Shown: positions 41,741 to 42,832 of the stretch, one piece after another
Numbering within the stretch: the first letter of the stretch is position 1
Layout: each line of letters begins with the position of its first letter
Source: Chloroflexota bacterium
GTDB lineage: Bacteria > Chloroflexota > Dehalococcoidia > Tepidiformales > Tepidiformaceae
NCBI GenBank assembly: GCA_026702615.1
Contig: JAPPBY010000009.1
Location: 62,001-126,000, forward strand
Reading direction: 5' to 3'
Length of the DNA stretch: 64,000 nt
Notes under the pieces: model-generated
What the model saw: only the letters and a program-made list of their open reading frames with translations
Told to the model about the DNA's origin: nothing
Database searches by the model: none
Position numbers and translations under genes: made by a program

Positions 41741-42520
41741 TCACGCTCCGGGACGAACGGAGACATCGGCGGCGAGCACTGTGAGGCGCTCGCCGCCTTC
41801 GCGTTCAACGACAAGGGCTCCATCGGGCGCAATCTCCAGCGCGCGCGCCTCGTAGGCGCCCTCGGGCTCCTCGACGGTAATCAAGCGGCCGAGCACGAGG
41901 CTGACGGCGCGATACGCATCGACGAGCTCGGCCTCTGGAGCGTCCATGGCGCCCTCGAGCTGGTCGCAGATGCGGGCAAGAAGCGACTCGCGGCCGACTT
42001 CGCGGCCAAGCTCGCGGGCGAGGCTGGTGGCGGTATCGCGCAGGGCGTCGGCGGCGGTGGGGTCGGCGTTCACGTTGATGCCGATGCCCGCGTAGGCGGT
42101 AAGGCCGCCGGGGCCAGTCTCGCCGTCGATGAGCATGCCGCACAGCTTGCGCTCGCCGACCCAGATGTCGTTGGGCCACTTGATGCGGGCATCGACGCCC
42201 TCATGGGCGCAGGCCTGGCAGACGGCAAGGGGGACGGCGAGAGGGAGGCGGCCGTATGCGTCCCGGGAGGGGCGCAGGATGAGCGTGAAGTAGAGGCTTC
42301 CGCCGGGGGGGCTGAAGAAGCCTCGCCCCCGGCGCCCACGGCCCGCGGTCTGCGCCTCAGCGAGGATGAGGGTCCCGTGGGGGGCGCCGTCCGCGGCAGC
42401 GGTACGGGCGAGGTCCATGGTCGAGGGGGTTTCGAGGACGTAGCGGAAGTCGCGGCCAAGGGCGGTGGTCTGGAGCGCGCCGGCAAAGCGATCGGTGTCG
42501 AAAGCGGGGGAATCGGGCAT
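41741..42520 (-). CDS. birA: biotin--[acetyl-CoA-carboxylase] ligase
   Basis: 259 aa from ATG 42520. The catalytic domain is clear: STMDLARTAA, the biotinyl-AMP loop QTAGRGRRGRGF, KWPNDIWVGERKLCGMLI and GIGINVN. There is no N-terminal helix-turn-helix, so this is a monofunctional ligase and not a repressor. Attaches biotin to carboxyl-carrier proteins in the cytosol. An upstream in-frame GTG (42568) lies inside a terminator stem, so ATG 42520 is preferred although no ribosome site is obvious. Confidence 0.9.
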   Translation of the reverse strand: MPDSPAFDTDRFAGALQTTALGRDFRYVLETPSTMDLARTAAADGAPHGTLILAEAQTAGRGRRGRGFFSPPGGSLYFTLILRPSRDAYGRLPLAVPLAVCQACAHEGVDARIKWPNDIWVGERKLCGMLIDGETGPGGLTAYAGIGINVNADPTAADALRDTATSLARELGREVGRESLLARICDQLEGAMDAPEAELVDAYRAVSLVLGRLITVEEPEGAYEARALEIAPDGALVVEREGGERLTVLAADVSVRPGA

Positions 42521-42542: not shown

Positions 42543-42580
42543 AAAAAGGGGCCTGGCGGCAATCGCACCGCTCAGGCCCC
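42543..42580 (-). terminator. intrinsic terminator upstream of birA
   Basis: On the minus strand GGGGCCT (42580-42574) pairs with AGGCCCC (42554-42548), the stem continues imperfectly, and TTTTT follows (42547-42543). It would end transcripts from the tiny ORF upstream, just before birA. Confidence 0.7.
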
Positions 42581-42601
42581 GTTCGTAGCTCAACGCATGT
42601 T

Positions 42602-42658
42602 CTAGGAGGAGGTCACCTCCTGCGCTAGATGGGGTTGGCTACTACTGTGGTCGTCCAT
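42602..42658 (-). CDS. candidate 18-aa peptide gene with full-length Shine-Dalgarno
   Basis: Encodes MDDHSSSQPHLAQEVTSS. AAGGAGGTGAT (42673-42663), an 11-nt perfect match to the 16S rRNA tail, lies 8 nt (from GGAGG) before ATG 42658; an in-frame ATG at 42664 is too close. A TATCGT box lies further upstream, and an intrinsic terminator follows. The end of the ORF has AGGAGGT-G-ACCTCCT, a near-perfect palindrome that could fold back on the ribosome site. It may be a leader peptide controlling birA or a stand-alone peptide. No family is recognised. Confidence 0.45.
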   Translation of the reverse strand: MDDHSSSQPHLAQEVTSS

Positions 42659-42832
42659 GCGCATCACCTCCTTCCTTGCAGCTAACGATAAACGTCCGCC
42701 CGCCCGGTGGCTAGAGGTGAAGGTTTGGAAGGCTCGCGCTTCCGCGTGTGGGGGAGCACCGGTATTCTGAGCGGGCGCGCGGCGCCTGGCGCTCTGCGTC
42801 AAATCTATGCGTCGCGCAGAAAGGGGCGGACC

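Follow-up and report, generated by a model that had tools for sequence, protein, structure and literature searches.

A predicted RNA mini-gene upstream of birA belongs to an apparently undescribed, Chloroflexota-wide RNA family

The window—the whole 64,000-nucleotide stretch of Chloroflexota DNA analysed here—carries on its minus strand a short open reading frame (ORF) that is preceded by a sequence complementary to the 16S 3' end, followed by a terminator, and placed directly ahead of the biotin protein ligase gene birA. The preliminary description of this DNA had set out SD1, an 18-codon ORF, the self-pairing AGGAGGTGACCTCCT, a terminator and then birA, and we confirm that layout. A pairing of ORF segment A with post-stop segment D, a fixed distance from SD2 to the stop, a probable promoter and copies remote from birA are additions to it. 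The parts of the locus are listed below.

42708-42713, minus strand: weak -35, TAGCCA, partner of the probable -10 box
42685-42690, minus strand: probable -10 box, TATCGT (in silico only; matching position in relatives)
42663-42673, minus strand: SD1, AAGGAGGTGAT, 11 nt complementary to the 16S 3' end (sequence)
42656-42671, minus strand: S1, GGAGGTGATGCGCATG, SD1 core plus spacer and start codon; predicted partner of S2 in RNA cut at the stop
42602-42658, minus strand: ORF, MDDHSSSQPHLAQEVTSS, 18 codons, ATG at 42658-42656 and stop TAG at 42604-42602
42634-42642, minus strand: ORF segment A, GTAGCCAAC, able to pair with post-stop segment D (cognate versus non-cognate duplex test)
42605-42625, minus strand: S2, GCGC...ACCTCCTCC, anti-start-site segment (S1 pairing in folds and duplexes)
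42613-42621, minus strand: SD2, AGGAGGTGA, about 10 nt 5' of the stop (anti-SD energy peak, 42 elements)
42621-42607, minus strand: self-pairing AGGAGGTGACCTCCT, AGGAGGT-G-ACCTCCT (sequence)
42585-42594, minus strand: S3/D, post-stop segment, GTTGAGCTAC (duplex test and folds)
42543-42580, minus strand: intrinsic terminator, hairpin 42580-42548 and TTTTT 42547-42543 (sequence and fold)
41741-42520, minus strand: birA (biotin protein ligase), ATG at 42520, Pfam PF03099 and PF02237 (BPL)

SD1 by chance is ruled out by its conservation in the family together with a shuffling control; the window has a single AAGGAGGTGAT, whereas 100 shuffles gave 0. A promoter for the mini-gene probably lies at about 42690, judging from the sequence. 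Relatives have TTGACA or TTGACG, a spacing of 17-18 nt and TANNNT, and in nearly all of them 25-26 nt separate the end of the -10 from the ATG.

The window's family (f1), which by named records comprises Tepidiforma and relatives in the Dehalococcoidia, Chloroflexota, holds the element in 36 of 38 genomes, once each, with an extra short match in one genome. The order of the elements is conserved among these relatives, a condition that the preliminary description had set, and birA lies directly 3' in 34 of 35 parsed loci (the exception is L033). The gene rpsB is divergently oriented at about two thirds of the family loci; a plus-strand rpsB leader was dropped as an explanation because rpsB does not adjoin all copies and birA nearly always does. 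SD1 is near-invariant in the relatives, which were themselves retrieved through SD1. Insertions and deletions within the ORF are multiples of three and leave the frame open, and the third codon position varies most (171 changes versus 86 and 84, counted pairwise and so not independent)—both support the earlier proposal of a small frame that looks translated.

The second anti-SD-matching site, also proposed earlier, is borne out; both SD1 and SD2 are conserved. Along the ORFs of 42 elements, anti-SD energy peaks at -7.5 kcal/mol in windows that start 16-13 nt before the stop, which leaves about 5-8 nt between SD2 and the last sense codon. An SD spacing of 5-8 nt is typical of initiation complexes; no start codon was noticed at the position expected for SD2 in the copies read, and we know of no counterpart for an SD placed at initiation-like spacing before a stop. 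Element stops are nearly always TAG or TAA and rarely TGA, while about 18 of 46 long ORFs in the window end in TGA, a difference that is suggestive only. The ORF ends 5' of SD2 in L079 (f50). The usual stop has gone in L159 (f105) and in L192 and L179 (f96), and these three loci keep the RNA pairings.

The element appears to be built around three segments: S2, within the ORF, can pair alternatively with S1 at the start site or with S3 after the stop. Covariation in relatives, suggested beforehand as a check, was examined for both pairings, and both covary. The cleanest form is that of f130 (L209 and L210), in which S1 is GGUGAUGCCC between SD1 and the AUG, S2 in the ORF is GGGCAUCAC(C/U), and S3 repeats GGUGAUGCCC after the stop. 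S2:S3 has 93.8% standard pairs over 26 distinct sequences, and S1:S2 is 97.7% paired; these percentages lean upward because the windows were picked for pairing, a choice that biases the double-change counts and the cognate tests less. There are 25 double-change cells for S2:S3 against 5.4 ± 1.9 after shuffling (0 of 500 shuffles), and 4 against 0.4 for S1:S2; when the S2:S3 helix is slid out of register, its paired share falls to 33-59%. Cognate duplexes between ORF and post-stop RNA are stronger than non-cognate ones across 23 families (p < 5e-5), with an earlier set in agreement. The A:D test, at first limited to the 32 nt ahead of the terminator and so blind to f24 and f50, was run again on the entire post-stop stretch. 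The NNN spacer from SD1 to ATG also covaries with the triplet beside the constant part of S2 (p about 1e-4), and in f124 two extra bases (GG) lengthen the spacer and S2 gains a matching CC. The earlier suggestion that CCTCC can pair with the first SD, and so could mask it, is supported by S1:S2 folds, duplexes and covariation, as a modelled result. Within the window's family, S2 (GCGC...ACCUCCUCC) and the A/D helix do not share a segment, and a pseudoknot that contains both pairings is therefore also conceivable; the A:D helix is weak in the window copy and strong in most relatives.

Folding predictions point the same way. Mean accessibility from SD to AUG over 23 families is 0.28 when the RNA is cut at the stop, 0.44 for the full RNA and 0.24 with a shuffled tail (p 2.5e-4 and 2.6e-5), a measure that was adopted after the GGAGG core alone had failed to separate cut from full RNA (p 0.75); S2 covers SD-to-AUG in most lineages. 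The expected number of pairs between start site and ORF is about 11.7 for RNA cut at the stop, 6.0 with the real post-stop stretch and 10.6 with a shuffled one. Some families, namely f104, f90, f24 and f133, show little or nothing of the switch in these predictions.

The element is found well beyond the window's family. An exact start-region pattern matched 37 of 294 genomes of the class, mostly one copy each, and the reversed pattern gave 0 matches; seven families of the class have the element. It lies 5' of birA in f23, f24, f26, f50 and f70, and birA (by Pfam) also follows it in f121. Six f17 genomes have the element without birA nearby, and the f17 birA is located elsewhere. Phylum-wide searches added f96, f104, f105, f106, f130, f144 and others, with roughly a single copy in each genome; smpB follows the element in f104 (Pfam in L163), and in other lineages the element is mostly alone or beside unrelated genes. 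The matches L173, L175-L177, L194, L214 and L220-L222 were discarded as ordinary genes or as sequences without the pairing. No plasmid or viral copies were found in a search for them, and a strict pattern run over GTDB 220 matched in this clade only.

Several single loci deserve mention. Genome G181 (f70) has two leader-birA copies, at C1:223558 (L085) and C1:1524554 (L127), with leaders that look identical and equal BPL scores—either a duplication or an assembly artefact. At L164 (f104) a tmRNA gene lies within 1.2 kb of the element, which, with smpB 3' of the element in relatives, is a link to ribosome rescue genes. Loci of f96 and f130 share a conserved TGCCG..CAGGC 5' of SD1, possibly a small hairpin, and their 5' leader is apparently longer than in f1.

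A covariance model (R1), trained on 19 sequences that all came from classes outside the window's, ties these copies together. It matched 66 of 400 genomes with one copy each, save one exception, among them all 23 sampled f96 genomes, all 9 sampled f130 genomes and all those sampled from f106, as well as f124 and f139, neither of which was in the training set. With no f1 sequence in training it recovered the window element at 42678-42607 on the minus strand (E 8e-4 in 100 kb, E-values of this model being rough). As predicted from sequence, the window mini-gene is a member of a Chloroflexota-wide, usually single-copy family of RNAs of about 130 nt. Their common anatomy begins with a promoter and an SD1 whose anti-SD complementarity reaches up to 12 nt, continues with 13-26 codons and an SD2 at a fixed distance before the stop, and closes with a terminator.

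How such an RNA might act can be weighed against what lies downstream. One reading takes the element as a birA leader, in which translation of the ORF and a ribosome at its stop set read-through of the terminator. The constancy of birA in f1 and its presence 3' in six further families speak for this, as does the gap from hairpin to birA; it is usually 14-50 nt (in the window birA starts 27 nt 3' of the hairpin, without an SD, and many relatives have a similarly short gap), which leaves no space for a promoter and makes read-through likely. In this clade birA is probably transcribed in that way. A ribosome on a stop codon less than about 27-30 nt away represses a terminator in E. coli (PMC4824070); the stop-terminator distance is about 21 nt in the window, and by analogy a terminating ribosome could raise birA read-through where that spacing is short. 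Against it stand the 46-64 nt in many copies before birA and a terminator stem that is 0.90-1.0 formed in the predicted ensemble of nearly all families (0.50 in f90). It has few pairs with upstream RNA, no antiterminator overlapping it was seen, and in these models the terminator plays no part in the switch. Nor is there a fixed regulated gene (birA, smpB or none follows) or a run of regulatory codons for a downstream pathway; the window peptide is Ser-rich, relatives are not uniformly so, and peptides differ between families. The preliminary proposal of an attenuator specific to birA is too narrow and finds no support in that form, given the lone copies (f17, f96 and others), smpB in f104 and a terminator at least 90% formed in nearly all families; a birA-only role was demoted once the lone copies turned up, and we regard leader attenuation as a possible but unlikely account.

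Two further readings seem improbable to us. A functional peptide of 13-26 residues, tightly gated, would fit the conserved frame and the third-position changes within the family; however, the peptides are almost wholly different between families, and S2 and SD2 dictate much of the ORF. If abundant, an RNA that carries two sites matching the anti-SD could titrate 30S subunits, as the preliminary description had also suggested, in keeping with the conservation of SD1 and SD2; however, SD1 is predicted to be masked in part of the ensemble. The best-supported reading, from the modelled folds, is that the element is most likely a small mRNA or sRNA whose start site opens once S3 is present.

Known systems offer partial parallels. 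Rfam 15 returned no family at its curated score for the element, whether in the window, at 18 loci or in two clean copies, and a known Rfam RNA was set aside on that ground; one copy gave sub-threshold matches to Leu, Phe and Thr leaders. The aapA3 mRNA of Helicobacter pylori, a type I toxin, has a metastable SD-masking hairpin (PMC6733600). In such mRNAs (aapA3, hok) RNA close by, ORF sequence included, covers the SD while transcription is under way, and a 3' segment then alters the fold, as is predicted here; however, the full-length aapA3 and hok RNAs are closed and opened by 3' trimming, whereas the 3' segment of the element is predicted to open it. Masking of the SD by alternative pairing is indicated for the element by prediction and covariation; a hydrophobic toxin peptide was not found, since the element peptides, as read from the sequences, are hydrophilic and rich in Ser, Arg and Asp. 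Leader-peptide attenuators of trp, leu and his share the strong SD, short ORF and terminator, but the element has no regulatory codon run or antiterminator and often no downstream gene. Dual-function small RNAs are likewise small lone transcript units with a short ORF, the transcript being predicted in our case, but the element adds a start-site switch that is conserved and an SD2 close to the stop. The recoding site of prfB (RF2) has an SD-like sequence just 5' of a stop, with a spacing of 3 nt; in contrast, SD2 of the element is set at its longer distance, and no conserved slippery codon was seen. The element is not described in the open papers searched, and the RNA family is apparently undescribed.

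Anatomy, conservation, covariation and the predicted switch were established in silico; expression, ribosome holding and feedback we infer. The mechanism we favour, at somewhat better than even confidence, is a self-contained mini-gene whose start site is masked by S2 until S3 captures S2, thereby gating ribosomes. Counting against it are the families in which the predicted switch is weak or missing, the aberrant ORF ends of L079, L159 and L192, and the low conservation of the peptides. The promoter would give an RNA of about 130 nt that ends at its own terminator. S2 would mask S1 until the post-stop S3 is made and captures it; the 13-26 codons would then be translated, and SD2, at initiation-like spacing, would slow release of the ribosome at the stop. 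We conjecture that this held ribosome keeps S2 off S3 and lets S2 re-close S1, from which we propose about one ribosome per RNA at a time. The RNA would thereby read ribosome supply or termination/recycling. A wider role as a phylum-wide housekeeping RNA, loaded with one ribosome at a time that is held at the stop by the terminal SD, and sensing ribosome supply or termination/recycling, is a tentative extension that we doubt more than we believe.

Many Chloroflexota families have in common a conserved, usually single-copy and apparently undescribed RNA gene, with covariation behind both helices of its predicted switch; from its conserved SD2 before the stop follows a specific prediction for ribosomes that terminate there.
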